A stretch of DNA of 39,834 nucleotides from a virus, in IMG/VR virus record IMGVR_UViG_3300042691_031744, positions 1 through 39,834 of that record, one strand, 5' to 3'. How positions within the stretch are numbered: the stretch's first letter is position 1; the number at the start of each line of letters is the position of its first letter. The position numbers were made by a program, and so were the translations under genes. The notes under the pieces are model-generated. The model had not been told where the DNA came from. It was given only the letters and a program-made list of their open reading frames with translations, and made no database searches. Below, one piece after another: positions 4,576 to 39,834 of this stretch.

Positions 4576-4861
4576 ATATTATGGTAAAAATGTATGAAAA
4601 TTTGTGGTTATTTGGGCCTGATTTGGGTCAGGTACTAAGTATTTTAGAGAGTAGAATACACAACCAGGCTGTCGTCAAATCGATCAGCGGAGGATTACAC
4701 CCAAGATCTACTCCACAACGGATTGTCCTGTGCCGCAAAGCTGGACACGCAGTATCAAGAGGACTTCGGAAATCCTCTTCATTGACAAATGGTACAGGCC
4801 CGGTGAGAAACAAAACCGCGCTCGGAGAGTATGCCAAAGAAGGCCCGAGGTCTTTTCTTTT
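4576..4861 (+). ncRNA. structured non-coding RNA candidate 2
   Basis: This is a free-standing transcription unit of about 285 nt with a perfect promoter, several stems and a terminator. Stems are 4617-4621/4628-4632 (CCTGA/TCAGG), 4649-4655/4707-4713 (7 bp), 4724-4728/4743-4747 (TGTCC/GGACA) and 4757-4763/4773-4779 (7 bp around a UUCG-containing loop). The terminator stem follows. A competing hairpin (GTATT/AATAC near 4639-4659) would exclude the 4649 stem, so a switch is possible. A frame beginning at 4581 lacks a ribosome-binding site and runs through all stems, so I do not call it a gene. No known RNA family recognised. Confidence 0.7.
4821..4861 (+). terminator. terminator of RNA candidate 2
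   Basis: The outer stem CTCGG (4821-4825)/CCGAG (4845-4849) and inner stem GCC (4833-4835)/GGC (4842-4844) are followed by TCTTTTCTTTT. Confidence 0.8.
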
Positions 4862-4935
4862 GCCTAAATCTCTGTCAATGCGCCCATCCTGGGCACTCCG
4901 GTGAAACGGCCCACTTGAGCCCGAAGGAGAAAACA

Positions 4936-5496
4936 TTGAAGACCTCTTCAAAGTCCAATCTAGGTAGTATAGCAGTAAAAGCAGTGAGTTTCGTAGCCGT
5001 GGTGTTTGCCGTGGTTTTCGTAACCGACTCAAAATTAGAAACACTGAGAGCCACGAATGAAGTGGCTCGACAAGGCTTTGTCAGCGTGGCAGATCGTGCC
5101 AAACAGTTGGACTGCCTAACCCGCAACATCTATTGGGAAGCTGCCACCGAGCCATTTGAAGGCAAGGTAGCAGTGGCACAGGTTACCATCAACCGTGTGG
5201 AAACCGGTAGATTCGCACCTGACATCTGCGGTGTGGTGTATCAGAAAAACGTGATCTACGACAAGGTAGTTTGTCAGTTCTCATGGTTCTGCGATGGAAG
5301 TTCAAAAGTACGACCCATATATCCAGCGCATTGGAAAGAGTCAGAAGAAGTGGCCAAAAAGGTCCTCTTAGAGGGATTCCGTTTGCCCAGCGTGAAGAAT
5401 GCCTTGTACTTTCACGCAGACTATGTGAAACCACAGTGGGGCAAACCACAGGTAGCTAAATTTGGAAGGCACATCTTTTATGCGGAAAAACTATGA
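4936..5496 (+). CDS. SleB/CwlJ-type cell-wall hydrolase with N-terminal membrane anchor
   Basis: I chose the TTG at 4936 because GAAGGAG lies 7 nt upstream; the longer frame from 4831 would start inside a terminator hairpin. The 186-aa protein has one hydrophobic span at about residues 12-30 without an obvious signal-peptidase site, then a SleB (Hydrolase_2) domain. The domain contains the NIYWEA active-site Glu, AQVTINRV, CQFSWFCDG and a final GRHIFY. The family cleaves peptidoglycan glycan strands. A single uncleaved span plus catalytic domain recalls signal-anchor endolysins. The gene overlaps the next membrane gene by four bases (ATGA), an accessory lysis pair separate from the GH19 cassette at 27,408. 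Confidence 0.85.
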   Translation: MKTSSKSNLGSIAVKAVSFVAVVFAVVFVTDSKLETLRATNEVARQGFVSVADRAKQLDCLTRNIYWEAATEPFEGKVAVAQVTINRVETGRFAPDICGVVYQKNVIYDKVVCQFSWFCDGSSKVRPIYPAHWKESEEVAKKVLLEGFRLPSVKNALYFHADYVKPQWGKPQVAKFGRHIFYAEKL

Positions 5497-5807
5497 TCGA
5501 AAATTTAGAAAAGTTGTTGAATTCTTCAAGAGCCTGGTTAGAACAACACTTGCCCAAAGTAAGTGCTGACACCCTGGGTTGGTTGGCCGTCGTAGTCATA
5601 CACTGTGCCACCATACCTACCTTGTTGGCCCTGCTCACTGGACTCAGTGATTCAGTACCTAACCTGGATATAGTGTTGTTCATGTGGACCGGTCTGGTGC
5701 TATTGTTCTTTAGAGCTGTGGTTCTCAGAGACATGCTCAACATCATTACTGTAGGGCTGGGCTTTATAGTTCAAGCTGTGATCATGGCCATGATCCTGTT
5801 CAAATAA
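5493..5807 (+). CDS. integral membrane protein, possible holin-like partner of the SleB hydrolase
   Basis: This 104-aa protein has an amphipathic N-terminal helix, then three hydrophobic segments (about residues 28-48, 55-78 and 82-103). It ends in a short FK tail. Its ATG overlaps the hydrolase stop. Size, topology and linkage to a cell-wall hydrolase would suit a small holin or hydrolase regulator, but no family motif is visible and a better holin candidate exists at 31,764. Confidence 0.6.
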   Translation: MIENLEKLLNSSRAWLEQHLPKVSADTLGWLAVVVIHCATIPTLLALLTGLSDSVPNLDIVLFMWTGLVLLFFRAVVLRDMLNIITVGLGFIVQAVIMAMILFK

Positions 5808-8863: not shown

Positions 8864-9082
8864 TTGGCCAAAGAAGATACCATAAAAATGGAAGGTGTTA
8901 TAGAAGAAGTTTTACCCAACACCACCTATAGAGTAAAGATTGAATCATTCGACAAGCCTGTGTTGGCCAGCCTAAATGGTCGTATGCGCATGAACAACAT
9001 CAAAGTTCTTGCTGGAGACACAGTAGAATTAGAGTTTAGTCCATATGATCTCACTCGCGGACGTATAACACGCCGCAGATAA
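8864..9082 (+). CDS. infA: translation initiation factor IF-1
   Basis: This 72-aa protein has the length and S1-type OB fold of bacterial IF-1. Diagnostic stretches are MAKEDTIKMEG, EVLPNTTYRV, NGRMRMNNIKVLAGDTV and SPYDLTRGRI. The start is TTG at 8864, with AAGGA 12 nt upstream. Relative to the bacterial consensus, the loop after strand 3 is changed (ESFDKPVLASLNG in place of ENGHxxxAHxSG). IF-1 binds the ribosomal A site on the 30S subunit and works with IF-2 and IF-3. A phage copy implies retuning of initiation. The TAA stop forms part of the late promoter for the next gene. Confidence 0.9.
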   Translation: MAKEDTIKMEGVIEEVLPNTTYRVKIESFDKPVLASLNGRMRMNNIKVLAGDTVELEFSPYDLTRGRITRRR

Positions 9083-9085
9083 ATA
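9078..9085 (+). promoter_or_regulatory. T4-late-type promoter, leaderless arrangement
   Basis: GATAAATA matches the T4 late core TATAAATA at seven of eight positions. By T4 spacing (core at -13 to -6) the transcript starts at 9091, the A of the SOD ATG. The IF-1 stop TAA (9080-9082) is inside it. Confidence 0.65.
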
Positions 9086-9090
9086 TCCTT

Positions 9091-9645
9091 ATGCAACACG
9101 AAATCCGCCAAAATCTAGACCTGCTAGAAGCTTCAACTCGTCCAGCCAAGCTGGAGACCACGCCTTTGCCCTATGGCGAAGGTGATCTTGATCCAGTGCT
9201 CAGCAAGGACAGCATCAATTATCACTATGAGCACCTGGCCAAAGGCTATGCCAAACGCTACAACGCCGGAGAAGGCAACGCCAATTTTAATCGCGCCGGC
9301 AGTTTCTTGCACAACAAGTTTTTTCCACAATTACGACCGCCCAAGGGTGCCAATCGTCCTCGTGGTGCTGTGCTGGAGCTTATAGAAACAAACTTCAAAA
9401 CCTATGAAGATTTCAAACAGGCTTTCAAAGAAACAGCCATGAAAATCCAAGGTTCAGGCTGGATTTATTTGAGCACAGCAGGAACCATCAAGACCATACC
9501 AAATCATCAGGTACGAACAGATATTTGCGTGTTGGTAGACTGGTGGGAACATGTCTGGGCCACAGACTACCAATGGGACAAAGAACGCTACTTGGACAAC
9601 ATTTGGAAAATTATAGATTGGGATGTTTGCAACCAAAGATTATGA
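9091..9645 (+). CDS. Fe/Mn superoxide dismutase
   Basis: This 184-aa protein has the SOD_Fe_N and SOD_Fe_C domains and all four expected metal ligands: His45 (NYHYEHL), His74 (FLHNKFF), Asp150 and His154 (LVDWWEH). GSGWIYLST and the [11 protein letters not shown] signature are intact, so it should be active. The family converts superoxide to oxygen and peroxide. Whether it takes iron or manganese cannot be read here. No signal peptide, so it acts in the host cytoplasm. The stop overlaps the Fe-S carrier gene by four bases, and both follow a late-type promoter. That fits protection of Fe-S clusters during virion production. Confidence 0.88.
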
Positions 9646-9968: not shown

Positions 9969-9995
9969 CCCCTGACCCAACAAGCCAAATAATCT

Positions 9996-10003
9996 GGTAA
10001 ATA
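9996..10003 (+). promoter_or_regulatory. T4-late-type promoter for the fibre operon
   Basis: GGTAAATA, followed by AGAGGA (10,009-10,014) and ATG at 10,024, heads the tail-fibre block. Confidence 0.65.
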
Positions 10004-10023
10004 CTATCAGAGGACGAATATCT

Positions 10024-12252
10024 ATGGCTCAACAACTTATTGGCGTAGGAAATGCACCCAACGACGGACAAGGCAATCCCATACGCACTGCTTTTATCAA
10101 ATGCAATGACAATTTCAGCGAATTATATGCGCGAGCCCAGGTAAGTCCGCCTCCGACTTTGATAGGTAGCATTGGTGATTTTGCTGGAATGTATGCATAT
10201 GATTCTTCGTATTTTTATTACTGTTTTGCAGACTATGATGGTAGTAGTATTATCTGGGCCCAGGTCACGCAGGTTGGCAATGTGTCAGTCAGTGCAATCA
10301 CCAACGGTACTAGCAATGTAAGGATTTCGGACATAAATGGCAATGCCAGCATCGGAATCAATGGCACAGGAAACGTGGTGGTGGTTTCTGATACTGGACA
10401 ATTTGTAACTGGCAATATTTCATCATCTGGCAACGTAATTGGTAATTATATACTAGGTAATGGCAGTCAACTAACAGGATTGCCTGAAACCTACGCCAAC
10501 AGCAACGTGGCTGCCTTCCTGCCAGTTTATTCTGGCAACATTTCGGCCAACAATATCACAGTAACTACAGCACTAAGCTCAGCCAATATCACAGCCACAA
10601 GCAACATCACCGGTGGTAACATACTGAGCAGTGGGATCATTAGTACGTCTGGAAACATTTTGACTCAAAGCATTATCAGCGCTACTGGTAACATTGAAAC
10701 AGCTGGTTATTTTGTAGGCACCTTTGTAGGCAACGTTACCGGTAACTTTGTGGTACCGGGTGCCAACACTCAAGTAATATTCAATACCAATGGCAATGCC
10801 GATGCAGTGGCCGGATTTACCTTTGATACCAATGGACCCAACTTGTTGACTGTGCTGGGTACTATCAGCAGTCAAGGCAATGTAGTTGGTGGCAACATAC
10901 GCACCGCAGGCCAAGTCTCGGCCACGGCCAACATCACAGGTGGCAATGTTCTCACTGGTGGCCTGATTTCAGCCACAGCCAACATCACAGGTGGCAATGT
11001 ACTCACTGGTGGCCTGATTTCAGCCACTTCAACTGTAACTTCTGCAGCCAACATCACCGGTGGTAACTTGATCACGGCTGGATTGGTAACCAGCACCGGA
11101 AATATCACTGGCGGCAATCTACTCACAGCAGGTCGAGTGTCGGCCACGGCCAATGTATACGGCGGAAACGTTATTGTTGTCAATGATGTGCAAACTGGTG
11201 GCAATGTCAGTGCTACCAGCCACACAGGAACCACGGTAAGTGTGATAGGAAATGTCATAGGTGGTAACCTAAGAACCGCAGGATCAATCACAGCCACTGG
11301 AAATGTCACTGGAAATTATTTTATTGGCAATGGCAGCCAACTTAGCAACATCGATACTACAATCATTCAAAATGGCAATTCCAACATGCAGATATCATCG
11401 GCCAATGGCAATGCCACAGTTACTATAGGTGGTGTTGGGCCAACTGTGATTTTTTCTTCTACAGAAACTGTGATATCTGGAAACGCATCAGTTACTGGAA
11501 ACGTCACTGGTGCTAATTTAGTGACCAGCGCCACAGTACAAGCTCTGACTGTCAACGCCACAGGTAACGTCACCGGTGGTAACTTACTCACCGGAGGCTT
11601 GATTTCGGCCACGTCAGCGGTTACTTCGGCTGCAAACATCACAGGCGCTAATATAATTACAGCTGGTCTGGTCACAGCCACAGGCAACGTCACTGGCGGC
11701 AATATAATTACCGCTGGCATAGTAAGCAGTGCCGGCAACATCTCTGGTCAAAATCTCAGTGTCAACTCGGGCACTGTGACTGTTGGAAATATCATCAATG
11801 GCAACGGAAATGGTGTCGGCAACATTGGCAGTTCAAGTCTCTACTATAACACTGTGTTTGCCAAGGCCACAAGTGCTCAATATGCTGACTTGGCAGAGAA
11901 CTATGTGTCAGATGCTGAATATGCTCCAGGTACTGTGGTTGTGTTTGGCGGAGCAAAAGAAATTACCATCAGCACCGAAGCTGCCGATGAACGTGTCGCC
12001 GGAGTTATCAGTACCAATCCAGCTCATTTAATGAATGCTGGTCAGCCCGGCCTAGCAGTGGCCTTGCGTGGGCGTGTGCCTGTGCATGTGATTGGACCAG
12101 TGTTCAAAGGCGACAGCTTGGTTACTTCAAGTACATCTGGTTTCGCACAAAGTGTGGGACGTGATCGATCTTATGCTCAGGCTGTGTTTGCCAAAGCTGT
12201 TGAAACCAATGTCAGCCCTGGCGAAAAGATCATTACAGCGGTGATATTGTGA
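10024..12252 (+). CDS. repetitive tail fibre with C-terminal processing-type domain
   Basis: This 742-aa protein opens with GVGNAPNDGQGNPIRTAF and NDNFSELYA, a typical attachment region of T4-like phage fibres. Residues of about 95-610 are built from degenerate units near 17 residues long (consensus SATGNVTGGNLLTAGLI), predicted to form a beta-helical trimeric shaft. The C-terminal 130 residues (YADLAENYVSDAEYAPGTVVVFGG onward, with ERVAGVISTNPAHLMN) resemble the G2-type autoproteolytic or chaperone domains at the ends of phage fibres. The repeats are nearly identical at DNA level in places, which favours recombination and host-range change. Confidence 0.8.
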   Translation: MAQQLIGVGNAPNDGQGNPIRTAFIKCNDNFSELYARAQVSPPPTLIGSIGDFAGMYAYDSSYFYYCFADYDGSSIIWAQVTQVGNVSVSAITNGTSNVRISDINGNASIGINGTGNVVVVSDTGQFVTGNISSSGNVIGNYILGNGSQLTGLPETYANSNVAAFLPVYSGNISANNITVTTALSSANITATSNITGGNILSSGIISTSGNILTQSIISATGNIETAGYFVGTFVGNVTGNFVVPGANTQVIFNTNGNADAVAGFTFDTNGPNLLTVLGTISSQGNVVGGNIRTAGQVSATANITGGNVLTGGLISATANITGGNVLTGGLISATSTVTSAANITGGNLITAGLVTSTGNITGGNLLTAGRVSATANVYGGNVIVVNDVQTGGNVSATSHTGTTVSVIGNVIGGNLRTAGSITATGNVTGNYFIGNGSQLSNIDTTIIQNGNSNMQISSANGNATVTIGGVGPTVIFSSTETVISGNASVTGNVTGANLVTSATVQALTVNATGNVTGGNLLTGGLISATSAVTSAANITGANIITAGLVTATGNVTGGNIITAGIVSSAGNISGQNLSVNSGTVTVGNIINGNGNGVGNIGSSSLYYNTVFAKATSAQYADLAENYVSDAEYAPGTVVVFGGAKEITISTEAADERVAGVISTNPAHLMNAGQPGLAVALRGRVPVHVIGPVFKGDSLVTSSTSGFAQSVGRDRSYAQAVFAKAVETNVSPGEKIITAVIL
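10927..11028 (+). repeat. tandem 51-bp (17-codon) repeat in the fibre shaft
   Basis: Two copies, 10,927-10,977 and 10,978-11,028, differ at about two bases. The unit encodes ANITGGNVLTGGLISAT. A more diverged copy lies near 11,566-11,616, and a longer stretch of about 120 bp around 10,990-11,115 recurs near 11,580-11,705. Confidence 0.85.
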
Positions 12253-20266: not shown

Positions 20267-20406
20267 AACTGGCCAAATGTAGCATCTGCTATAAGGTGCC
20301 CACACCCGATTGCGATTGGCGTCAAGGGCGTTGTCCGCACAGAGAACCAGCTTTTGTAGAAATTGCCATGCGTAATTTTTTTAATTTTTTTAAAAGGTCA
20401 AAATGA
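20227..20406 (+). CDS. small putative zinc-binding protein
   Basis: This 59-aa frame overlaps the preceding gene by 40 nt and the clamp-loader gene by four (ATGA). It contains CSICYKVPTPDC and then GRCPHR, giving CxxC-x7-C-x6-C with an adjacent His, a plausible zinc site. The tail is basic. Coupling to the clamp loader suggests a DNA-replication accessory role, which is inference. Confidence 0.55.
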   Translation: MGTGTTRRNPKAVKLAKCSICYKVPTPDCDWRQGRCPHREPAFVEIAMRNFFNFFKRSK

Positions 20407-21320
20407 AACAACTTTGGACAGAAAAATATCGGCCGGACACCTTGGATGGGTATGTGTTCCGTGATCCGGCACAGCGGGAACAGATCGAAGGATGGATCCG
20501 AGAAAAAACCATACCACACTTGTTGTTTTCGGGTGCACCAGGTGTAGGCAAGACCACGCTGGCAAAAATCTTGATCAAGTCTTTGGGCATTGACGAATAT
20601 GACATCCTGGAGATCAATGCATCAAGAGAAAACAGTGTGGATACCATTCGTGACAAGATCACAAACTTTGTGGCCACCATGCCTTTTGGTGTGTTCAAGG
20701 TAGTGTTGCTGGATGAAGCAGACTATATCAGTCCCAATGGACAGGCTGCACTGCGTGGAGTCATGGAAACTTATCATGCCAGTGCCAGATTCATTCTTAC
20801 TTGTAACTATCCCAATCGTGTGATTCCGGCCTTGCATTCAAGATGCCAAGGTTTCCATATTGATCGTGTGGATCTCACTGAATTCACCGCCAGAGTGGCC
20901 ACTGTGTTGGTCGGCGAGAGTGTGGAGTTTGATCTAGACACCCTGGACTCATATGTGCGTGCCACGTATCCAGATCTGCGTAAGTGTTTAAACACAGTAC
21001 AAATGCACAGCGTGGACGGACGATTGACAGCCCCCAGCGCAGATTCAGCCAGCAGCCAAGACTGGCGCTTGGCCGCTGTAGATCTGTTCAAGCAAGGAAA
21101 GATCACTGAAGCGAGAAAACTCATGTGTGCCAGTGTGCGTCCGGAAGAAATGGAAGACATGTTCCGTTGGATGTATGACAATCTTGCACTGTGGTCAAAG
21201 GATCCAGAAAAACAAGATCAGGCCATCATTATCATACGCAATGGTCTGGTCAATGTGCCCATGGTAGCTGATCAAGAAATTAATTTGAGTGCTACACTTT
21301 GCGAGTTGAGTCAACTATGA
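20403..21320 (+). CDS. 44: sliding-clamp loader ATPase subunit (gp44/RfcS-like)
   Basis: This 305-aa AAA+ protein has Walker A GAPGVGKTT (residues 44-52), Walker B VVLLDEAD (about 102-109) and the SRC arginine-finger motif HSRCQGF (about 141-147). T4 gp44 is 319 aa. With the small subunit gp62 it opens gp45 clamps and loads them on primed DNA. A short gene of unknown identity overlaps the 3' end by four bases, at the position gp62 would have, but I do not recognise gp62 there. An ATGA overlap joins it to the zinc-type small gene upstream. Confidence 0.85.
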   Translation: MKQLWTEKYRPDTLDGYVFRDPAQREQIEGWIREKTIPHLLFSGAPGVGKTTLAKILIKSLGIDEYDILEINASRENSVDTIRDKITNFVATMPFGVFKVVLLDEADYISPNGQAALRGVMETYHASARFILTCNYPNRVIPALHSRCQGFHIDRVDLTEFTARVATVLVGESVEFDLDTLDSYVRATYPDLRKCLNTVQMHSVDGRLTAPSADSASSQDWRLAAVDLFKQGKITEARKLMCASVRPEEMEDMFRWMYDNLALWSKDPEKQDQAIIIIRNGLVNVPMVADQEINLSATLCELSQL

Positions 21321-23111: not shown

Positions 23112-23119
23112 CATAAATA
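23112..23119 (+). promoter_or_regulatory. T4-late-type promoter, leaderless arrangement
   Basis: CATAAATA with exactly five bases to the ATG at 23,125. The expected start is the A of that ATG. It lies in the 126-bp divergent gap between phoH and 23,125, where I see nothing else. Confidence 0.62.
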
Positions 23120-23124
23120 ATCGT

Positions 23125-23709
23125 ATGAGCAAAACCATTGATCAAGCCATATTCAAAGACGGTAGCGACTACTGGCAAGTGGCCGAGAACATCCGCGATA
23201 TCTATCTCAGCGAAGGCAGCTTGCTGACCTTGCTGGACTTTGAAAGGGTATTGGACGAGCTGGATTTGTATGCTTTTAAAAACTGGCAAATTGGCGAACT
23301 GGTAAGTGGACCTAGCATTGGCAAATATCGTGTGACTTGTATTTTTATGTGGCCTGAAAAACTCATGCCCGATCCACGTGGTGCCCGTAGATTATTGCCG
23401 TTTGACTGTGAAATCAAATTCAAAAAAACCGCTATGAAAGTGCCCATGAAAATCTCTAATCCCGACGATTTTCGTCCGGGCACACACAAGGCAAGATTAA
23501 TTGAAAAGAAAATTTGGCTGGTATCCATAACCATGCCCAAGAGCCTTATGAGCGACATCCGAACAGGCTCGGTAGAACTAGAAGATCAAGATATTGATTT
23601 AGCAGACCTAGATGATGCCTACGAGCAGGATCTAGACAAAGACAGTTATCAAAATCAACAACAGGCAGAAAATGCACAACAAACACTCCAACAGCCAGCC
23701 CCTTTATGA
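23125..23709 (+). CDS. unknown, probable virion-associated protein
   Basis: This 194-aa protein is mixed alpha/beta in residues 1-150 with a Gln/Asp-rich disordered tail. Segments such as WQIGELVSGPSIGKYRVTCIFMW do not match a family I know. Late-type leaderless promoter; overlaps the next gene by 38 nt. Late timing suggests a structural or assembly role. Confidence 0.6.
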   Translation: MSKTIDQAIFKDGSDYWQVAENIRDIYLSEGSLLTLLDFERVLDELDLYAFKNWQIGELVSGPSIGKYRVTCIFMWPEKLMPDPRGARRLLPFDCEIKFKKTAMKVPMKISNPDDFRPGTHKARLIEKKIWLVSITMPKSLMSDIRTGSVELEDQDIDLADLDDAYEQDLDKDSYQNQQQAENAQQTLQQPAPL

Positions 23710-24971: not shown

Positions 24972-25656
24972 ATTCCAACAATTTTAGATTGTATTTTTCT
25001 GCGAATTCATTTACTATTTCAAAGGTCCAAGGAAATATGTCCACGTATGGACCTGCTTTGTGCGGAATGCCAGGATTGGCACGCAGATAGAATTTGCCAC
25101 CAGGCGCCAGCAACGTCACACAGTGGGCAAAACGCTGTTCTATTTCGTCTCGGCTGTTGAAGTTGATCGAGCCCAAGGCGATGATGTGATCGTGTGTGCC
25201 AGGCCGGACCTTGTAATCCAGGATGTCAACTTCATAATCTGCGCAGTTATTGTAAGGATCAATTCCTGTCAAGTTGGGTATGCGACCTTTGAATGGATGA
25301 TACCCACAGCCCACATCTAACACATTTTTAGGATCCTGTTTGGCAATGGTTTCTGCCAAGGCCCAGCCCGAGTAGTCATATTCGCCAGTGCGTGGTTTCC
25401 AAATTTCTGCAAAAAAACGTCGGGTATACCGATCGCTGAGATCGTCTATGATATGTTTCAAGGTTCCACGATATTCACAGGGCAGACCCAGTTCGGCCTC
25501 CACAGCATCTTTGAACTTTCGATAGCGTGCTGGAGTCCAGGGCAGGTCCTCCACAATGGTTTCTGAGCCTATGCTTTCGCGTATGCTGGCATATTTGGGC
25601 AGAGCAAAAGCCGTATTCAAATTTTTCTTAATCAGGGTAAAAATTTTGGTATTCAT
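24916..25656 (-). CDS. class I SAM-dependent methyltransferase
   Basis: This 246-aa protein has motif I NVLDVGCGYHPF (about residues 93-104), an acidic residue after strand 2 (LTGIDPYNN), motif IV-like DHIIALGSINF and post-motif CVTLLAPGGKFYLRANPG. The fold is clear but the substrate is not: no DNA-methylase NPPY/DPPY motif, so a small molecule, protein or glycan target is more likely. Encoded opposite to its neighbours. Its 3' end overlaps the SGNH hydrolase gene tail-to-tail. Confidence 0.78.
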   Translation of the reverse strand: MNTKIFTLIKKNLNTAFALPKYASIRESIGSETIVEDLPWTPARYRKFKDAVEAELGLPCEYRGTLKHIIDDLSDRYTRRFFAEIWKPRTGEYDYSGWALAETIAKQDPKNVLDVGCGYHPFKGRIPNLTGIDPYNNCADYEVDILDYKVRPGTHDHIIALGSINFNSRDEIEQRFAHCVTLLAPGGKFYLRANPGIPHKAGPYVDIFPWTFEIVNEFAEKYNLKLLEFKREPAELGRLFFVYQKL

Positions 25657-25674: not shown

Positions 25675-25682
25675 GATAAATA
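25675..25682 (+). promoter_or_regulatory. T4-late-type promoter, plus strand
   Basis: GATAAATA in the 123-bp divergent gap. Predicted start about 25,688; the Bug-type gene begins at 25,780 with AAGGATC before it. Confidence 0.5.
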
Positions 25683-25779: not shown

Positions 25780-26751
25780 ATGAAAAACATATTAGCTGCA
25801 TTATTGCTGGTGCCGGTCATGGCCTGGGCACAATGGGCACCCAACAAGCCTGTCAACACCACCGTTGGATTTGCTCCTGGGAGTGGAAACGAAATAAGTT
25901 TTCGCAAGGCCAGTGAAATAGTAAGCAAACAAAACCCTGGTGTTTCATTTACAGTAGAAACCCGACCCGGTGCTGATGCCGCTGTGGCAAGCAACAGTTT
26001 TATGTCAGCACCCAGCGATGGGTTACACCTGATGGTGCCCAGCCATATGAGCCTGTTTGTGACCAATGATATCTGGCAACGGGACATCAAACGTTTTGAA
26101 TACAACAGTTTCAAGCCTGCTGTGACCCTGGGCAAAAGCCCCTTGGTCTTGGTAGCGTCTAGCAAAAGCACCGTGAACACTCCGCAGGAATTTGTCAAAT
26201 ACATCACCAACGGACGTGCTGTAAACATTGCTGTGGGCGGCGGCGCACACAGAATGGCCTATGAATACATTATTAGTCGCACCAAGGCCGACGCCAAATT
26301 AATACAACACGTGGCTTTCAACGGTCCACTACCGGCTGTGACATCGGTGGCCAGCTATGACGGCAAGACCGGCACAGAATTTGGTATTATGCCTGTGGCC
26401 ATAGCCAGACCCTTGATCGAAGCTGGCAAGGTCAAACCCATTGGACTCACTGGAGGTCCCAAATTAAAAGCATTGCCCACTGTGCCCTTGCTCAGCGACA
26501 CTATTCCTGGGTTAAAAGTTTACGCAGGATGGATAGTTGTGCTACCTCCGCAAACCCCTAATACCATCGTGGACTGGTATGTGGACAAGTTTTCCCGAGC
26601 CATACTATCAAAAGAATATCAGGACTGGGCTGAACAGAACTATATAATTATAGACCGTGATGAACTTAATCCACGAGGTGTCATGACCTATGCCGAAGAA
26701 TTACGCACAGCATTTGCACCCATAGCACGAAACATTAAAGTAGAGAAATAA
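25780..26751 (+). CDS. Bug/TctC-family periplasmic solute-binding protein
   Basis: This 323-aa protein has a clear Sec signal peptide (MKNILAALLLVPVMAWA, cleavage before QWAP). It keeps the family landmarks: VGFAPGSGNEI (binding loop 1, usually PFxPGGxxD), PGADAAVASNSFMSAPSDG, NIAVGGGAHR, and the GKVKPIGLTG, P.L.TVP.LSDT.PG sequence. Bug proteins capture carboxylates or other small organic molecules in the periplasm for TTT transporters. The genes are greatly expanded in betaproteobacteria. AAGGATC precedes the ATG. Without transporter subunits nearby it may supply a host TctAB system or bind a different ligand. Phage carriage is unusual. Confidence 0.85.
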   Translation: MKNILAALLLVPVMAWAQWAPNKPVNTTVGFAPGSGNEISFRKASEIVSKQNPGVSFTVETRPGADAAVASNSFMSAPSDGLHLMVPSHMSLFVTNDIWQRDIKRFEYNSFKPAVTLGKSPLVLVASSKSTVNTPQEFVKYITNGRAVNIAVGGGAHRMAYEYIISRTKADAKLIQHVAFNGPLPAVTSVASYDGKTGTEFGIMPVAIARPLIEAGKVKPIGLTGGPKLKALPTVPLLSDTIPGLKVYAGWIVVLPPQTPNTIVDWYVDKFSRAILSKEYQDWAEQNYIIIDRDELNPRGVMTYAEELRTAFAPIARNIKVEK

Positions 26752-27369
26752 TTGAAATACATTTTTGTAGCTGGAGCACCGGGTTCTAAATGGAGCTCGG
26801 TGGTCAAGAACATTTATTACAGCGCCGACATTGACAGATCCGACGATTCCGCCCAACGAAGTTATGCCCATTCAGAAGCCTATGCTGGCACACCCATGCA
26901 CCTGGGTAGTTATTTTGATCCTGGCATGGAATTTGGCACGTGGTTTGATCAGTTAGATCAACACACCCGTGAAGAATGTGAACGTGAATTTGACCGGCCT
27001 TTTTCGGGCACAGGTGTGCGAATCATAAAAAGTCACATGTTCATGAATCATGTGGGTTTTTTGAAACAAACGTGGCCAGATTGTCCAATCATACTGGTCC
27101 ATCGCGGCGACGATGCATGCCTGGGCTGGTGGATACGCTGCGGAGGATTTGATATTTCTTATCCCAATTATCGACCATACTACAAAGATATCGAAAACAT
27201 GTATCAGGAAATAATCAAACAAAATAAATCCATGCGTCCTTACTGGGATTTGGCCAGCTTTGTTTACAACAATATTGAATTGTGTTCCAAATTGGGTTTA
27301 AAATTGCCTGATAAACAATTTCGTCAAGACTACCCCGAACACAAGGTCAGAGTCAAGGTTTATCAGTAA
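26752..27369 (+). CDS. sulfotransferase-like protein
   Basis: This 205-aa protein starts with TTG immediately after the Bug stop, so translation is coupled. It has a P-loop-like FVAGAPGSKWSSVVKN (5'-phosphosulfate-binding type), KSHMFMNHVGFL, and CPIILVHRGDDACLGWW in the 3'-phosphate-binding position. This layout matches PAPS-dependent sulfotransferases of marine phages. Substrate unknown; an LPS or other glycan is plausible. A kinase-like P-loop protein is the alternative. Reading together with the Bug gene suggests a shared metabolite or surface-modification role. Confidence 0.6.
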   Translation: MKYIFVAGAPGSKWSSVVKNIYYSADIDRSDDSAQRSYAHSEAYAGTPMHLGSYFDPGMEFGTWFDQLDQHTREECEREFDRPFSGTGVRIIKSHMFMNHVGFLKQTWPDCPIILVHRGDDACLGWWIRCGGFDISYPNYRPYYKDIENMYQEIIKQNKSMRPYWDLASFVYNNIELCSKLGLKLPDKQFRQDYPEHKVRVKVYQ

Positions 27370-27375
27370 AATCTC

Positions 27376-27383
27376 GCTAAATA
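27376..27383 (+). promoter_or_regulatory. T4-late-type promoter of the lysis cassette
   Basis: GCTAAATA ends at 27,383. T4 spacing puts the start at about 27,389, inside the 5' arm of the adjoining hairpin. Confidence 0.6.
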
Positions 27384-27409
27384 TGGGTATATCAAGGAAT
27401 CATACCCAT
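27383..27409 (+). promoter_or_regulatory. hairpin masking the endolysin start codon
   Basis: ATGGGTAT (27,383-27,390) pairs perfectly with ATACCCAT (27,402-27,409). The 11-nt loop contains AAGGA (27,394-27,398), and two bases of the ATG (27,408-27,409) are in the stem. Read-through RNA would be masked. RNA starting near 27,389 would keep only two of the eight 5' arm bases. Confidence 0.75.
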
Positions 27410-28034
27410 GGAAATCACCCGCGAACAACTGGCCCAAATCATACCCAAAAATCCCTACATCGATCAGTGGTGTACAGCATTGAATAAATTGTTGCCGGAC
27501 TACGGCATCGACACTCCACAGCGTGTGGCTGCCTTTCTAGCACAATGCGCCCATGAGTCTGGTGGATTTGTTTTCCTTAAGGAAAACTTGAACTATCGTG
27601 CCGCAAGTTTACGCAAGATATTCCCCAAGTATTTCCCTACCGATGCTTTAGCAGAACAATATGCCAGCCTGCCCAACAAGGCCGAAGCCATAGCCAACAG
27701 GATCTATGCCAACAGAATGGGCAATGGCCCAGAAGAAAGCGGCGATGGTTTCCGCTACTGCGGTCGTGGACTCATACAGCTTACAGGCAAGAGCAACTAT
27801 TCAAACTTTGCTGACAGCATAGAAACGCCTGTGGAAGAAACCAGTGCTTACTTGGAAACTTTCGAGGGCGCAGTACAAAGTGCATGCTGGTTCTGGGAAA
27901 CCAATAATTTAAATCAGTACGCTGACAACAACGACATCCTTACAATGACAAAAAGAATCAACGGCGGCACCATTGGACTCGAGGATAGAATGAAACATTA
28001 TGCTCATGCCCTACATGTATTTGGCGGTCACTGA
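27408..28034 (+). CDS. GH19 endolysin (chitinase-like muramidase)
   Basis: This 208-aa protein has the glycoside hydrolase 19 core: AHESGGF with the catalytic Glu50, a second acidic candidate (Glu59 in KENLNY), YANRMGNGPEESGDG, RGLIQLTGKSNY and the C-terminal RINGG. No signal peptide or membrane anchor, so it needs a holin. Phage GH19 enzymes cleave the MurNAc-GlcNAc backbone. Its TGA overlaps the spanin gene ATG by one base. Expression is expected to be late and gated by the hairpin at its start. Confidence 0.9.
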   Translation: MEITREQLAQIIPKNPYIDQWCTALNKLLPDYGIDTPQRVAAFLAQCAHESGGFVFLKENLNYRAASLRKIFPKYFPTDALAEQYASLPNKAEAIANRIYANRMGNGPEESGDGFRYCGRGLIQLTGKSNYSNFADSIETPVEETSAYLETFEGAVQSACWFWETNNLNQYADNNDILTMTKRINGGTIGLEDRMKHYAHALHVFGGH

Positions 28035-28561
28035 TGTGGCAGTTGGCTGTTCTTTGGAGCTTGATTCCAGATTGGTTGATCACTGCGTTGGTCAACGGCC
28101 TGATCATTGTGGGCCTAATAGGAATCAGTGCCGCATGGATCGCACGCTGGGTTCCTTACTTCAACATGTATCGCGGCCCCATACAACTCATAGGCATTGT
28201 GTGTCTGGTATTGGGAGTCTACTTCAAAGGTGGTGCCGATGTTGAACGTGCCTGGCGCGAACGAGTAAAAGAATTGGAAGCCAAGGTAGCCTTAGCCGAA
28301 GTACAAAGCAAAGAAGCAAATAAAAAGCTAAGCGATCAACTCGCCCAAAACAAACGATTAACTCAGGAAGTCAAAAATGCAAACACAGCCGCTATCCGGG
28401 CCAATGCAGAAAAGATTAATAGTGAGTGCCGTGTGCCTGATGTTGCTATCAGCCTGCACAACAGCGCCAGTAAAAATCAAGTTTCCGGAAGTTCCTCAGG
28501 AACTCCGGGAGTCCTGCCCGCCCCTGGCACAAGTCAACCCAGCCGATCACCAGCTAAGTAG
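28034..28561 (+). CDS. Rz: Rz-like inner-membrane spanin
   Basis: This 175-aa protein has two hydrophobic segments (about residues 16-36 and 48-66), then a coiled coil of about 55 residues rich in Ala, Lys, Glu and Gln (VKELEAKVALAEVQSKEANKKLSDQ and onward) in the periplasm. Its Ser/Pro-rich tail is the reading-frame shadow of the nested Rz1 gene. Two N-terminal spans instead of one are unusual for Rz. It follows the endolysin without a gap. Function: i-spanin fusing inner and outer membranes after peptidoglycan loss. Confidence 0.75.
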   Translation: MWQLAVLWSLIPDWLITALVNGLIIVGLIGISAAWIARWVPYFNMYRGPIQLIGIVCLVLGVYFKGGADVERAWRERVKELEAKVALAEVQSKEANKKLSDQLAQNKRLTQEVKNANTAAIRANAEKINSECRVPDVAISLHNSASKNQVSGSSSGTPGVLPAPGTSQPSRSPAK

Positions 28562-28679
28562 TCTCTTAGAAGTGGTCACGGCCAACTACGCTCAGTATTA
28601 TGAGTGCAAGAATCGTGCTGACGGTTGGACTCAGTGGTATGACAACCAACGCAAGATTTACGAGAGCATATCACGATGA
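28404..28679 (+). CDS. Rz1: Rz1-like outer-membrane spanin lipoprotein, nested
   Basis: It starts inside the Rz gene in another frame. I choose the ATG at 28,404, giving 91 aa with signal MQKRLIVSAVCLMLLSAC and lipobox LLSAC (Cys18). The in-frame ATG at 28,377 adds nine residues. The mature part carries VPQELRESCPPLAQ, a composition typical of o-spanins, and a helical C-terminus (ANYAQYYECKNRADGWTQW). It extends 118 nt past the Rz stop, an overlapping nested arrangement. It should pair with Rz across the periplasm. Confidence 0.8.
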   Translation: MQKRLIVSAVCLMLLSACTTAPVKIKFPEVPQELRESCPPLAQVNPADHQLSSLLEVVTANYAQYYECKNRADGWTQWYDNQRKIYESISR

Positions 28680-28698: not shown

Positions 28699-29277
28699 AT
28701 GCCGCAACCGCAGTGTCATGTGATTGCACATGAGTCGTCAAGAGTCATAGGTGACTGTGTACAAAGTTTAACACAACATGGATGGCGTTATAAAATATTT
28801 CCTGCAGTGGATGGTAGAACCGTAACAGCTCAAGATTGGCACCGCACAGGTGTGACCATGAGCCAAGAAGGAAAGATGACACGTCGTCCTGGCGCTCAAG
28901 GTTGCTGGCTGAGTCATTTTGCCCTGTGGCAACAGTGTGCGGATAGCAACGAGCCTGTGGTGATTCTTGAACATGATGCCTTGGTCACAGCGCCATGGCC
29001 TGAAGATTTGAACATAGACAACCAACTGTTAAAATTATTCAGTACAGCAGAATGCAAGGTCAATCCTGCGTTTGGTCTTTGGAGCAAAGGCGCTCATGCT
29101 TATACAGTAACACCTGCCCAAGCACACACTCTTATCACGGATGCGCAACAGCGTGGCGCCCAGGCCGTGGACAAGCACCTGGGCACACAGGTCCTGCCCT
29201 GGACTTTTTACCACCGTGATTTGGTTCTGCTAAACCCTGCTCGTGGACCATCCAGCACAAGTCCGCTGAGAAAGTAA
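28699..29277 (+). CDS. GT25-type glycosyltransferase
   Basis: I use the ATG at 28,699, behind AAAGGAAC; the frame continues upstream only through Rz1 sequence. The 192-aa protein has the LPS-type family 25 landmarks: HVIAHESSRVIGD with KIFPAVDGRTV, GCWLSHFALWQ and VVILEHDALV (the DxD-like acidic pair). C-terminal GLWSKGAHAYTVTPAQA fits the acceptor part. Such enzymes add galactose or another sugar to LPS cores. It may remodel host surface or virion sugars. The stop is part of the next late-type promoter. Confidence 0.78.
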   Translation: MPQPQCHVIAHESSRVIGDCVQSLTQHGWRYKIFPAVDGRTVTAQDWHRTGVTMSQEGKMTRRPGAQGCWLSHFALWQQCADSNEPVVILEHDALVTAPWPEDLNIDNQLLKLFSTAECKVNPAFGLWSKGAHAYTVTPAQAHTLITDAQQRGAQAVDKHLGTQVLPWTFYHRDLVLLNPARGPSSTSPLRK

Positions 29278-29280
29278 ATA
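29273..29280 (+). promoter_or_regulatory. T4-late-type promoter over a stop codon, leaderless arrangement
   Basis: AGTAAATA contains the GT25 stop TAA (29,275-29,277). The ATG at 29,286 is five bases after it, at predicted +1. Confidence 0.65.
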
Positions 29281-29285
29281 CTGTT

Positions 29286-29690
29286 ATGAAACGAATTGTC
29301 CTTGCACTTTCCACAGCGTTGTTGAGCAGTTGTGCCCTTTGGGATGCCTACATGATGGCACCCTATGATGCCAACGAGTACATGCAGATTACAGAAATCC
29401 GTGCTTCAGCTGGACAATATAGAAAGCAGTGCGACAATCCTATACTGGCACCAGCCAATGCTCAAGCCATAGCAAACAAGACTGATCTGTTTGAAAAATA
29501 TGAGGAATTGATTCCCAGAAACGCCAATGGCTACAATGCGGCACGGGCCTTGAATGAAATCACACAAGGACTCAATACAGCCTATGCCAAAGGCGTTGTT
29601 AGTCCGACATTCTGTAGATTAAAATACAACAACATAGAACACAGTTCTGAACTCATACAGCGTGTCACAGCAGGAAGACCCAGACGATGA
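29286..29690 (+). CDS. small lipoprotein of unknown function
   Basis: This 134-aa protein starts with MKRIVLALSTALLSSC, a signal with lipobox LSSC (Cys16). The mature domain is helical with two further Cys residues (QCDN, FCRL) that could form a disulfide. No family recognised. It heads the 29,286-31,721 operon under a leaderless late-type promoter and overlaps the next gene by four bases. Confidence 0.65.
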   Translation: MKRIVLALSTALLSSCALWDAYMMAPYDANEYMQITEIRASAGQYRKQCDNPILAPANAQAIANKTDLFEKYEELIPRNANGYNAARALNEITQGLNTAYAKGVVSPTFCRLKYNNIEHSSELIQRVTAGRPRR

Positions 29691-35617: not shown

Positions 35618-36302
35618 TCCAGTTGTCAAAGATCGACTTTTTTATGATCAGTTTAAATACTGTATCAGTTTTCATCTGGATGAAATAAACTGCCTGCGCG
35701 AACTAGATCATGACAGCATCGACGAGATGGTTCAACGGCGACAAGCCTGGCGTCAGATAGCTCAACAACGCTGGGTCAATGGCAAACAAAGTTACAAGTC
35801 CAACATACTAGGACGCCGTTGCAAGGAAATCACTGCCAGCACAGTATCTGATTTGCATGCACTGGCTGAAATTTTGTTGACCGCCAGCAATAAATTCAAA
35901 TTGGTAGTAAGTGTGGATCAAGGTTACGTGTACACCAATGATCTATGTTTGATCGATCAGCTCGATGCCATGCCCCAACTGACTCATAAAAATTACACCC
36001 AGGCACAAATTGATCGTCCACGAAATACCATACAGCTCAAACATTCTCAACACAAATATCGCAGTTATTTTCGCTTGATCAAGCTCACAGCTGATGAAAA
36101 AACGCAATTGGTCAAATTCTTAAAAAATCATCAAAACAGCGTGCGATTAAGCCCAGCATTGACCCAGTGGTTACCGATATCTTTCAATCGCACACAAGAT
36201 TATTTTTTTGTGGACTACGACACCACACTATGGTTGACCATGTTGGCCTTGGTACATCCTGGACTTATAAGAAAAACCATGCAGATAATCCAGGCTAAAT
36301 AA
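35592..36302 (+). CDS. unknown protein downstream of the unfoldase
   Basis: This 236-aa frame uses TTG at 35,592, overlapping the ClpA-like gene by 26 nt; no closer ATG is in frame near the junction. It is basic, Tyr/Phe/Arg-rich and mixed alpha/beta. No motif recognised. As an overlapping partner of the unfoldase gene it could be a substrate adaptor, which is a guess from position. Confidence 0.55.
   Translation: MIDSNQKFNPVVKDRLFYDQFKYCISFHLDEINCLRELDHDSIDEMVQRRQAWRQIAQQRWVNGKQSYKSNILGRRCKEITASTVSDLHALAEILLTASNKFKLVVSVDQGYVYTNDLCLIDQLDAMPQLTHKNYTQAQIDRPRNTIQLKHSQHKYRSYFRLIKLTADEKTQLVKFLKNHQNSVRLSPALTQWLPISFNRTQDYFFVDYDTTLWLTMLALVHPGLIRKTMQIIQAK
36294..36301 (+). promoter_or_regulatory. T4-late-type promoter over a stop codon
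   Basis: GCTAAATA overlaps the TAA at 36,300-36,302. The ATG at 36,309 would have a two-base leader. Confidence 0.6.
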
Positions 36303-36308
36303 TACACT

Positions 36309-37280: not shown

Positions 37281-37288
37281 CATAAATA
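37281..37288 (+). promoter_or_regulatory. T4-late-type promoter, near-leaderless
   Basis: CATAAATA in the 16-bp gap. The ATG at 37,296 would have a two-base leader. Confidence 0.6.
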
Positions 37289-37295
37289 TATTACA

Positions 37296-38141
37296 ATGAA
37301 CTATCTTGTAATATATCCCGGCAGATTCCATCCTTTCCATCTGGGCCATAAGGCCAGTTATGATTGGCTGACCAAACAGTTTGGAGACAATTCAGTATAC
37401 GTCGCTACCAGTGAAAAACGCGAGCCTGAAACCAGCCCTTTCAAATATGATGACAAAATAACCATGATGACCAAGTTGGGCATACCATCTGGGCGCATCA
37501 AGAAAGTGAAAAATCCCTATCAGGCCACAGAAATCACAGACACCTTGTCTGATGAAGAAAAGGCCGACACTGTGCTAGTATTTGCTGTGAGTGCCAAGGA
37601 TGCACAACGATTTAATTTTGCTACAAAAAAAGATGGATCACCTGGTTACTTGCAACCCCTGCCCGACAATAAAAAAAGCATCGAGCCAATGACCCGGCAC
37701 GGATATGTTGCCATAACTCCCACAGTGAATTTTCAGGTGCAAGGTGTAGATGCCAACAGTGCCAGCCAAATCCGCAAACTTTACACAGACGGCAATGACA
37801 ATGATAGAAATCAGATCATAACAGATCTATACGGTGCCGCTGACTCAGAATTACGAGCCATATTTGACCAAGCTCTTGGAATAAATGATGCCAAAGAAGG
37901 CATTATCTACGGACAAGAACGCATATACGCCGGCGATAATCCAGTTTCTATCATGCGCGAAGAACGCCTGGCCTGCCTGCGTGACAGTATCATGTTTCTA
38001 CAGGACAAAATACAAGAACTCAAAATGGGCATGGACTACATCGATGAAAAATGGAGTCGTAAATACAAGCGCAGTATCAACTGTGCCCGTCCCCGAGGAT
38101 TCAGCCAAAAAGCACACTGTGCCGGTCGCAAGAAAAAATAA
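37296..38141 (+). CDS. nucleotidylyltransferase (HxGH family) with Cys-rich tail tag
   Basis: This 281-aa protein begins with a Rossmann-type VIYPGRFHPFHLGH, holding the HxGH ATP-binding motif (His15, His18) of the nucleotidylyltransferase family. Members include NMN adenylyltransferase, phosphopantetheine adenylyltransferase and CTP-dependent enzymes. The expected second motif (ISxTxxR) may be DANSASQIRKL. The C-terminus ends in CARPRGFSQKAHCAGRKKK, a Cys/His tag seen in proteins of large aquatic phages; it may bind zinc. The substrate cannot be assigned. Confidence 0.72.
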   Translation: MNYLVIYPGRFHPFHLGHKASYDWLTKQFGDNSVYVATSEKREPETSPFKYDDKITMMTKLGIPSGRIKKVKNPYQATEITDTLSDEEKADTVLVFAVSAKDAQRFNFATKKDGSPGYLQPLPDNKKSIEPMTRHGYVAITPTVNFQVQGVDANSASQIRKLYTDGNDNDRNQIITDLYGAADSELRAIFDQALGINDAKEGIIYGQERIYAGDNPVSIMREERLACLRDSIMFLQDKIQELKMGMDYIDEKWSRKYKRSINCARPRGFSQKAHCAGRKKK

Positions 38142-38158
38142 CAGCCTGTATAATCGCT

Positions 38159-38166
38159 AGTAAATA
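38159..38166 (+). promoter_or_regulatory. T4-late-type promoter
   Basis: AGTAAATA, followed by AGAGGAA and ATG at 38,191. Confidence 0.6.
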
Positions 38167-38190
38167 TCACACAATTTACTAGAGGAACTC

Positions 38191-39111
38191 ATGGCTGAAA
38201 ACAAAGACGCAGTACCTACCACACAAACCCCTGTTGTTGAAACACAGGCCCAACAGCCGGCACAGCCTGGTCAGCAACAAATACAAGTCAACATTGATTA
38301 CCTGCGTACCACACGTGTGCATATTTGCATGCCTTGTTATGGTGGCATGCTCACAGAATCAACATTCATGAGCTATATCAAATGGGCCAACACTTGCCGT
38401 CAACTGGGCATTGATTGGACCATGGAAACCATGACCAATGAAAGCTTGATCAGCCGTGCTAGAAACACACTCACAGCCAAGTTCCTGAACAACAAAGAAA
38501 GCACACACTTGATGTTCATTGATGCTGACATTGGTTGGGAACCCTGGCACTTGTTGGTCATGCTTAATCGTGACGTGGATGTGATTGGCGGACTTTATCC
38601 TATGAAAAGCCTGCCTGTGAAATGGTGTGTAAATGGCTTTGAAGGTGCCGAAGAAGGACCCGATGGCCTGCAAGAAGTAAGCAAAACTGGCACTGGCTTT
38701 ATGTTGATCAAGCGCCATGTGTTTGAGAAACTAGACGCACATCCGGCCACCCGCCCGTTTGCCAATGACATTGGTTTGCCAGCCGAACTTAATCCTTACA
38801 TGAAAACCTATTTTGACACAGCAGTGCGTGAAAATCGCTATTATTCAGAAGACTGGACTTTCTGCGAAAACTGGCGTGACCTAGGCGGCAAAGTCTGGGT
38901 AGACAAGCGTGTATTGCTCAAACACACCGGAACCTATGTGTTTGATTTCCAGGCTCAAGATCAGCTTTATAAAGATCTACATGCCATGGCACAGGCCAGC
39001 GGGCAAGCTTCTCCAGTAAATGTGCAGGCTCCACCGCCTGCTGATGCTCCCGTGGTGGCAAAAACCATTGCGTCGAGCAAAAAAGACAAGAAACAAGCCA
39101 AAGCCAAGTAA
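38191..39111 (+). CDS. GT-A (family 2-like) glycosyltransferase
   Basis: This 306-aa protein has a Gln/Pro-rich N-terminal linker (about residues 1-35) and a catalytic domain with VHICMPCYGGM, LISRARNTLTAKF, LMFIDADIGW (DxD motif), DVIGGLYPMK, GTGFMLIKR and YSEDWTFCENWRDLGGKVW (acceptor-side ED and W). The last 60 residues are Ala/Pro/Lys-rich and end in KKDKKQAKAK. The family transfers sugars from NDP-sugars. Disordered tails at both ends suggest fusion to, or delivery with, a large complex. Target unknown. Confidence 0.78.
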   Translation: MAENKDAVPTTQTPVVETQAQQPAQPGQQQIQVNIDYLRTTRVHICMPCYGGMLTESTFMSYIKWANTCRQLGIDWTMETMTNESLISRARNTLTAKFLNNKESTHLMFIDADIGWEPWHLLVMLNRDVDVIGGLYPMKSLPVKWCVNGFEGAEEGPDGLQEVSKTGTGFMLIKRHVFEKLDAHPATRPFANDIGLPAELNPYMKTYFDTAVRENRYYSEDWTFCENWRDLGGKVWVDKRVLLKHTGTYVFDFQAQDQLYKDLHAMAQASGQASPVNVQAPPPADAPVVAKTIASSKKDKKQAKAK

Positions 39112-39112
39112 C

Positions 39113-39120
39113 GGTAAATA
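39113..39120 (+). promoter_or_regulatory. T4-late-type promoter, leaderless arrangement
   Basis: GGTAAATA with five bases to the ATG at 39,126, which coincides with the predicted start. Confidence 0.62.
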
Positions 39121-39125
39121 CACTC

Positions 39126-39834
39126 ATGAACATCCATGAGTTAGATTCCTACGATTTAGGCGATGCAGTCAAGTTCAACGATAAACTAAATCCACGTATC
39201 TGGGGCGCAGATGAAAAAATGCGCCCCGAAGTGCGTGAACAGTTGTTGCGAGTTGCCGACGATTTCCGCGAATTCCTGGGCATAGATGTTGAAGTCAAAG
39301 ACATCACTGTGTCAGGATCCAATGCGGCATATACCTACACCCCACATTCAGACATCGATTTACATCTGGTGGTAGACTTGCCGGAAGCTGATCGAAACGA
39401 AGTTTATCGCGAATTGTTTGATGCCAAGAAGTATGTCTACAACGAACAGCATGACATCAAAATTGGTGGCTATGATGTGGAGCTCTACGTACAGGACGCA
39501 AACAAAACTCATCACAGTCAAGGCATATACTCTTTGACCAATGACGATTGGGTAAGTGTTCCTAAAAGACGTCAGCCTGACGTGGATGACATCAGCGTAA
39601 AAAGCAAGTTTGAAGATCTCGGCCATCGTATTGAAAGTGCAATCAAAAGCCAGGATTATGAAAAGATTTCAGCCATGGCCGACAAAATCAAAGATTACCG
39701 TCAGGCTGGACTGGATGCACACGGTGAGTTTGGTCCGGAGAATCTTGCTTTCAAGATTCTGCGCACACAGGGCCTAATCAAAAGATTGTATGATGCTCGC
39801 AACGCAGCCAAAGACGAATTATTGAGTCTAGACG
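39126..39834 (+). CDS. minimal nucleotidyltransferase, 3' partial
   Basis: At least 236 codons are open to the window edge. Motif VSGSNAAYTYT followed by HSDIDLHLVVD gives the GS-x10-DxD signature (Gly64, Ser65, Asp76, Asp78) of the polymerase-beta-like nucleotidyltransferase superfamily (MNT, kanamycin and CCA-type enzymes). A later acidic residue in DVELYVQ could be the third metal ligand. Helical region follows. Such genes occur in T4-like aquatic phages; the substrate is unknown. Confidence 0.72.
   Translation, partial: MNIHELDSYDLGDAVKFNDKLNPRIWGADEKMRPEVREQLLRVADDFREFLGIDVEVKDITVSGSNAAYTYTPHSDIDLHLVVDLPEADRNEVYRELFDAKKYVYNEQHDIKIGGYDVELYVQDANKTHHSQGIYSLTNDDWVSVPKRRQPDVDDISVKSKFEDLGHRIESAIKSQDYEKISAMADKIKDYRQAGLDAHGEFGPENLAFKILRTQGLIKRLYDARNAAKDELLSLD

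Follow-up and report, generated by a model that had tools for sequence, protein, structure and literature searches.

The endolysin gene of an uncultivated lake virus, carried on a 39,834-base IMG/VR fragment (the window, by which we mean this whole stretch of DNA), is preceded by a T4-type late promoter core that runs into a hairpin closing on the start codon (Table 1). This combination of late core and start-masking hairpin, to which an earlier note on the sequence had drawn attention, is confirmed as a real sequence feature, and its interpretation as a device of the T4 gene e type is supported, as far as sequence can speak, by the computed core, hairpin, geometry and GH19 identity and by an anatomy kept in relatives. 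The hairpin arrangement recurs, with different stem sequences, before related GH19 endolysins. We consider it quite probable that the best explanation is a translational lock embedded in the promoter of the endolysin gene, with putative read-through from upstream, a predicted late start site, and presumed repression and release.

Anatomy of the endolysin leader

The arms ATGGGTAT and ATACCCAT form a perfect 8-bp stem with the A and U of the endolysin start codon at its base and AAGGA within the loop ATCAAGGAATC, exactly as the earlier note had described. The late core GCTAAATA does meet the 5′ arm, the two having a single base (A27383) in common, and a T4-type start at 27389 would take off six of the eight bases of that arm. 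The description of the hairpin as start-masking holds for the AUG, which is paired, but not for the Shine-Dalgarno (SD) word AAGGA, which lies in the loop and is itself unpaired. Most TAAATA sites of the window lie on the coding + strand. The sequence matches none of the Rfam 15 families at gathering score anywhere in the window, and a known Rfam element was therefore rejected.

The assignment of the downstream gene to the GH19 endolysins is borne out by its PF00182 and phrog_181 matches, and a TctC/Bug-family gene, the proposed origin of read-through RNA, is indeed present upstream (PF03401). The latter, a phage-borne gene, encodes a protein with a signal-peptide-like start. The N-terminal stretch of the Rz-like spanin encoded behind the endolysin reads like two membrane segments, so that a holin-spanin fusion is possible. 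A second cell-wall hydrolase gene lies at 4831-5496 (phrog_938 endolysin, 9.9e-19) and is directly followed by a small membrane-protein-like ORF (5493-5807), possibly forming a second lysis cassette. By its gp44-type clamp loader the contig can be recognised as that of a T4-superfamily phage.

Table 1. Features of the window discussed in the text, with their positions and the basis of each assignment.
Feature	Position	Strand	Basis
Late promoter core, T4-type, GCTAAATA	27376-27383	+	sequence; 24 nt 5′ of endolysin ATG
Hairpin 5′ arm ATGGGTAT	27383-27390	+	sequence, folding
Hairpin loop ATCAAGGAATC, 11 nt	27391-27401	+	sequence
Shine-Dalgarno AAGGA, inside hairpin loop	27394-27398	+	sequence
Hairpin 3′ arm ATACCCAT, contains A and T of ATG	27402-27409	+	sequence, folding
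Endolysin ATG	27408-27410	+	sequence
Predicted late transcription start	27389	+	core end + 6; deduced from core-to-ATG spacing in related contigs
GH19 endolysin, 208 aa	27408-28034	+	phrog_181 endolysin 1.1e-75; PF00182 8.1e-6, 26.2 bits vs cut-off 25.5
Rz-like inner-membrane spanin	28034-28561	+	phrog_312 1.8e-6
Rz1-like outer-membrane spanin, overlaps Rz in another frame	28377-28679	+	phrog_456 1.9e-7
TctC/Bug-family binding protein, first upstream gene in read-through model	25780-26751	+	PF03401 2.3e-12
Upstream ORF without family match	26752-27369	+	stop 38 nt 5′ of endolysin ATG
gp44-type clamp loader	20403-21320	+	phrog_168 1.4e-75
Second hairpin CTAGTAAAT/ATTTACTAG; late core 38161-38166 in 5′ arm, SD GAGGA at 3′ edge	38157-38182	+	covariation in orthologues
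PHROG_1574 gene, glycosyltransferase-like by our reading	38191-39111	+	phrog_1574 1.3e-37
Third hairpin TCTGGTA/TATCAGA (one G-U); core 9998-10003 partly in arm and loop, SD GAGGA at 3′ edge	9993-10011	+	family test
Tail-fibre-like gene	10024-12252	+	phrog_22593, phrog_19602 (tail fiber protein, 1.4e-4)
Hairpin over ATG (37296) of gene with 7-nt core-to-ATG spacing	37286-37316	+	perfect; identical in G003 orthologue

Folding of the region 27370-27430 gives -12.2 kcal/mol (shuffle z -2.1; 7 of 200 shuffles are as good), whereas the RNA beginning at the putative late start (27389-27430) folds at only -1.7 kcal/mol. The computed probability that the start codon is paired is 0.95 in the read-through RNA versus 0.54 in the late RNA, the corresponding values for the SD word being 0.16 and 0.36. 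Opening the segment from SD to AUG costs 6.7 kcal/mol in the read-through RNA and 2.6 in the late RNA; the same script returns 14.1 and 1.6 kcal/mol for T4 e, which displays the same signature and ranks first among 15 T4 leaders by opening cost. Longer RNA costs more to open, and since the comparison is biased by length in this way, it is the permutation tests described below that carry the argument. Since the SD of the window stays in the loop, the lock would rest on the closure of that loop and on the pairing of the AUG, and is probably a weaker one than in T4 e. When ranked among mismatched combinations of promoter and leader from other late endolysins, the pairing in the window falls within the top 4-5%. 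By itself the stem is thus only moderately unusual, and the strong evidence is comparative.

Pairing is kept in related endolysin leaders while the stems change

Three scans of viral contigs yielded 240 endolysin loci and, together with the window, 149 non-redundant GH19 starts; in 23 of these, TAAATA precedes the ATG by 12-45 nt. That distance range and the SD filter are our own choice, gene starts were assigned by simple ORF calling, and loci in which TAAATA is a stop codon or stands too near the ATG (L034, L038, L040, L046, L057, L073, L077, L081 and L137) were not counted as promoters. Each pre-start segment was joined to each leader, and the ensemble energies of true and permuted pairs were compared. 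For the 23 endolysin leaders the real pairs average -6.2 kcal/mol versus -3.3 for permuted ones (z -6.2, P ≤ 5e-5; the loci are related, and this and the other permutation P values are not those of independent samples). An energy of -6 or better is reached by 11 of the 23, compared with 10% of mismatched pairs; the remaining 12 miss this cut, and five loci (L070, L168, L243, L275 and L026) have little or nothing. A first statistic based on RNAduplex, which under-counted hairpins crossing the start site and was replaced by the interaction ensemble energy, had given z -4.75 for the 23 endolysins and z -3.4 for 54 late leaders. The start codon is paired with a probability of 0.63 in late-core endolysin starts versus 0.26 in 125 tested starts without a core (difference in minimum free energy, P 0.008).

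The stem sequences themselves vary (TCCTT/AAGGA, ATGTGC/GCACAT, AGTAGAT/ATCTACT, AAAATCTCCTAT/ATAGGAGATTTT and others). By eye, two forms can be told apart: in the window and in L010, L011, L091, L124, L221, L216, L218 and L220 the loop contains the SD and the ATG lies at the base of the stem or next to it, and in L009, L083, L085, L087 and L235 the SD is in or against the stem. The endolysin of L009 is 96% identical to that of the window, yet its leader is unrelated and carries a 5-bp SD-masking stem, TCCTT/AAGGA. In the alignment of L216, L218 and L220, 96.6% of cells are paired versus 28-60% when slid, a result equalled by 165 of 500 shuffles, as there are three sequences only.

The arrangement recurs at other late genes

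The hairpin covers the start of the endolysin gene, as had been claimed, but the arrangement is not peculiar to the lysis gene and is found at other late genes as well. Among six related records (the window, G001, G002, G003, G006 and G010; 825 kb), 49 other leadered late genes give z -5.2, with 29% versus 9% at -6 or better, and the strongest cases come back family by family. The PHROG_1574 gene starting at 38191 is a case in point: a scan for this family gave 80 loci, three of them without a core; with duplicates set aside, 59 non-redundant late-core leaders entered the test and give z -10.0, with 49% versus 14% for mismatched pairs. In the form usual for this family, CTCTnn-TAAA pairs with UUUA-nnAGAG(GA), so that the promoter TAAA and an anti-SD together make up the 5′ arm. 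In 23 leaders that align without gaps (the window and 22 of the 59), 77.4% of cells are paired versus 69.0 ± 1.6% after shuffling (0 of 500 as good), and covariation in the same alignment reaches 0.208 versus 0.089 ± 0.019 (again 0 of 500), while slid alignments are at most 55% paired. The tail-fibre-like family, with 58 of the 80 fetched loci plus the window, contributed 33 non-redundant late-core leaders (20 lack a core, the rest being duplicates), which give z -9.2, with 73% versus 37% for mismatched pairs. A device confined to endolysins was accordingly rejected, the 38191 and fibre families having the same anatomy.

A rule for all late genes was likewise rejected: among 46 leaders near gp55 genes the proportion at -6 or better is 4% versus 7% for mismatched pairs (z -0.2). 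Taken alone, G006 displays no pairing enrichment in the duplex test. Two further structures were seen in passing, namely the perfect hairpin that encloses the ATG of the near-leaderless gene at 37296, and a 16-bp stem over a late core in G001 (L183, + strand, core 8215), which falls outside the filters used and is not the only hairpin of its kind.

Predicted late start site and genes with short spacing

In the six records the distance from TAAATA to the ATG of a called gene has two modes. Of 182 pairs, 54 fall at 4-7 nt (29 of them at exactly 5 nt), almost none at 8-17 nt, and 64 at 18-28 nt. The same picture emerges from 80 loci around gp55 genes (1.16 Mb), where 67 of 177 pairs lie at 4-7 nt, none at 8-12 nt and 60 at 18-28 nt. 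Control hexamers have no peak at 4-7 nt except for ATAAAT and AAATAT, which overlap the site, and a small one for ATAATA. Elsewhere the short spacing is rare (1 of 20 in T4, 0 of 12 in PA5oct, 1 of 19 in Melnitz-1 and 0 of 6 in P-SSM7). The T4 late core spans -13 to -6. A distance of 5 nt, with the A of the ATG as +1, equals the T4 spacing (core end + 6), which would put +1 in the window at 27389; an excerpt of PMC2988020 likewise sets the T4-type late core about one helical turn upstream of the start. From the core-to-ATG spacing in related contigs, which it fits, we infer a late start at 27389 and the loss of six arm bases.

In the window itself, a TAAATA core stands 5-7 nt before the ATG at 9080-9091, 23114-23125, 29275-29286, 37283-37296, 36296-36308 and 39115-39126. 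These genes look as would be expected for leaderless or near-leaderless late mRNAs. The short spacing is kept in the G001 or G003 orthologues of the genes at 9091, 23125 and 37296, and the proteins begin sensibly, with a signal-peptide-like start at 29286 and an N-terminal nucleotidyltransferase motif at 37296 (both motifs by our own reading). The gene with this leaderless-type spacing at 9091-9645 encodes an Fe/Mn superoxide dismutase (PF02777).

A gp55-type late sigma factor is encoded in G001 and G006 (phrog_12791, about 1e-75) and was not found in the other 13 of the 15 records searched, some of which are fragments, as is the window record, one of the 13. A T4 gp45 query had no match in the 15 records; the query is divergent and the result shows little.

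Proposed mechanism and alternative explanations

According to the proposed lock, an RNA started upstream would contain both arms and fold, placing the AUG at the stem base and the SD in a closed loop, so that little endolysin would be made from it. A gp55-type late polymerase starting at about 27389 would instead produce an RNA that lacks six of the eight arm bases, does not fold and is translated; synthesis of the endolysin, followed by the Rz/Rz1 spanins, would then have to await the onset of late transcription. By analogy with T4, the RNA guarded against may be early or middle read-through. Sigma-70-like matches near 25656 and 25765 score 9 of 12, and no early promoter stands out upstream. 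A late-like GATAAATA at 25675, 97 nt 5′ of the TctC ATG, means that the upstream TctC operon might itself be late, in which case late read-through is possible as well.

Several other explanations must be weighed against this lock. AT-rich leaders often pair, and a chance inverted repeat might happen to lie on the start codon. Indeed, the window has 20 perfect inverted repeats (at least 8 bp, loop 3-20) versus 11.7 ± 2.6 in 30 dinucleotide shuffles, for which reason a single one is weak evidence, and the bare stem (-8.3 kcal/mol) is equalled by 27 of 200 shuffles. Yet three of the 20 (27383, 37286 and 38157) fall on the 11 listed late-core leaders, at least three being expected with P 0.0006 under random placement, and the permutation tests depart strongly from chance in three gene families (z -6.2, -10.0 and -9.2) and two isolate genomes (z -5.5 and -5.1), which makes coincidence improbable, if the least so of the alternatives. 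Slightly less credit goes to a hairpin that serves the 3′ end or the processing of the upstream transcript, as a terminator-like or protective structure, and whose effect on the endolysin would be incidental: the hairpin starts 14 nt past the upstream stop codon, but the stem is followed by GGAAATC and not by the U-run of an intrinsic terminator, and no terminator-like site is called on the + strand in the 38-nt gap before the endolysin. An intrinsic terminator was ruled out on these grounds, and in relatives that have the stem its 3′ arm abuts or holds the SD or AUG.

The palindrome could also act at the DNA level, either as an operator of the late promoter or by forming a cruciform there. 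It does overlap the core, and I-TevI has an operator over its own late promoter (PMC2988022, in excerpt); the arms, however, vary from gene to gene within a genome and from one orthologue to the next, leaving no common site, whereas the pairing with SD or AUG is constant, and we regard this explanation as very unlikely. The least probable alternative is a thermosensor or tuning hairpin present on all transcripts, late ones included, with the real start upstream of 27383. The start at 27389 is indeed a predicted one, but the pile-up of ATGs 4-7 nt past the core matches the T4 start spacing, and the hairpins often include the core itself.

Relation to known systems and implications

The enzyme of T4 e belongs to family GH24. 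The window endolysin is not of the T4 lysozyme e family, being assigned to GH19 by PF00182 and phrog_181. The principle of a ribosome-binding-site hairpin combined with a late promoter is known from T4 e, soc, 49 and I-TevI (excerpts of PMC3014915, a review which also lists cyanophages and others without gene e), and from I-TevII, I-TevIII, segB and Aeh1 mobE (PMC2988022, in part). As in the window, T4 e has a late core in or beside the 5′ arm, an SD and AUG masked in upstream-started RNA and free in late RNA, and a lysis enzyme as product, according to the same part of PMC3014915. The two differ in that T4 e has two late promoters and the window one, in that the SD of T4 e lies in the 3′ arm while in the window it lies in the loop with the AUG in the stem, and in their unrelated sequences. 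In soc, 49, I-TevI/II/III, segB and mobE, as here, the hairpin is described as acting on early or middle RNA with a late promoter within the region; these cases were described singly and are mostly mobile endonucleases, in contrast to the whole families of late-gene orthologues found here. The S-PM2 late promoter NATAAATA of a T4-like cyanophage resembles the window core (PMC2984593), and Aeh1 late promoters have a/gC in place of TA at -13/-12, like GCTAAATA (PMC2988020); the excerpts of these two accounts mention neither a hairpin nor a leaderless class. Leaderless transcripts are common among phages, according to a remark in the AR9 paper (PMC5312081, in excerpt); for a T4-type late core so placed that the ATG would be +1, dozens of times in a clade, the open-access literature searched gave no precedent.

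In the open-access literature we found no report of the hairpin device at GH19 endolysins or in whole late-gene families, nor of T4-like phages with a class of leaderless late genes. The principle itself is known; the novelty lies in its use at a GH19 endolysin, in its recurrence at several late genes and in a further class of late genes that look leaderless. The data point to an enzyme not homologous to that of T4 being under the same kind of lysis-timing lock, and to a device that in T4 was documented one gene at a time being recurrent and easily recognised here, the core TAAA pairing with UUUA and an upstream CTC with the SD GAG; this sequence rule predicts which late genes are locked. Together with the leaderless class, this suggests that these phages tie translation to the transcription start. 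More tentatively, and with rather more doubt than belief, we propose that in a large clade of uncultivated, jumbo-sized phages of the T4 superfamily the RNA 5′ end may license the translation of many late genes, the ORFs being either leaderless (AUG at +1, 5 nt past the core) or provided with a leader whose SD or AUG is locked, on any longer RNA, by pairing with the promoter sequence. If so, late proteins would come only from RNAs begun at the late promoter of the gene itself, regardless of any read-through.

Cultivated phages

Before the endolysin genes of cultivated relatives, TAAATA stands 60 nt from the ATG in PhiW-14, outside the 12-45 nt range, and is absent within 80 nt of the ATG in Cr30 and XacN1; the start of the Va1 gene is ambiguous. 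Pairing enrichment among leaders is not significant in Melnitz-1 and PA5oct, and T4 (65.5 kb read) gives z -2.7 (P 0.017). In XacN1 (150 kb read), 8 of 29 leaders versus 9% reach -6 or better (z -5.1), with eight ATGs at 4-7 nt from the core and none at 8-11 nt; in Atu_ph07 (150 kb read), 7 of 30 versus 6% do so (z -5.5), with no ATG at 4-7 nt. Both these phages are in culture and have the same statistics, so that the device can be tested at the bench. At one Atu_ph07 locus (L537, minus strand, core 41184), a hairpin AATACCT..AGGTATT lies beside the core and has the same stem letters as T4 e.
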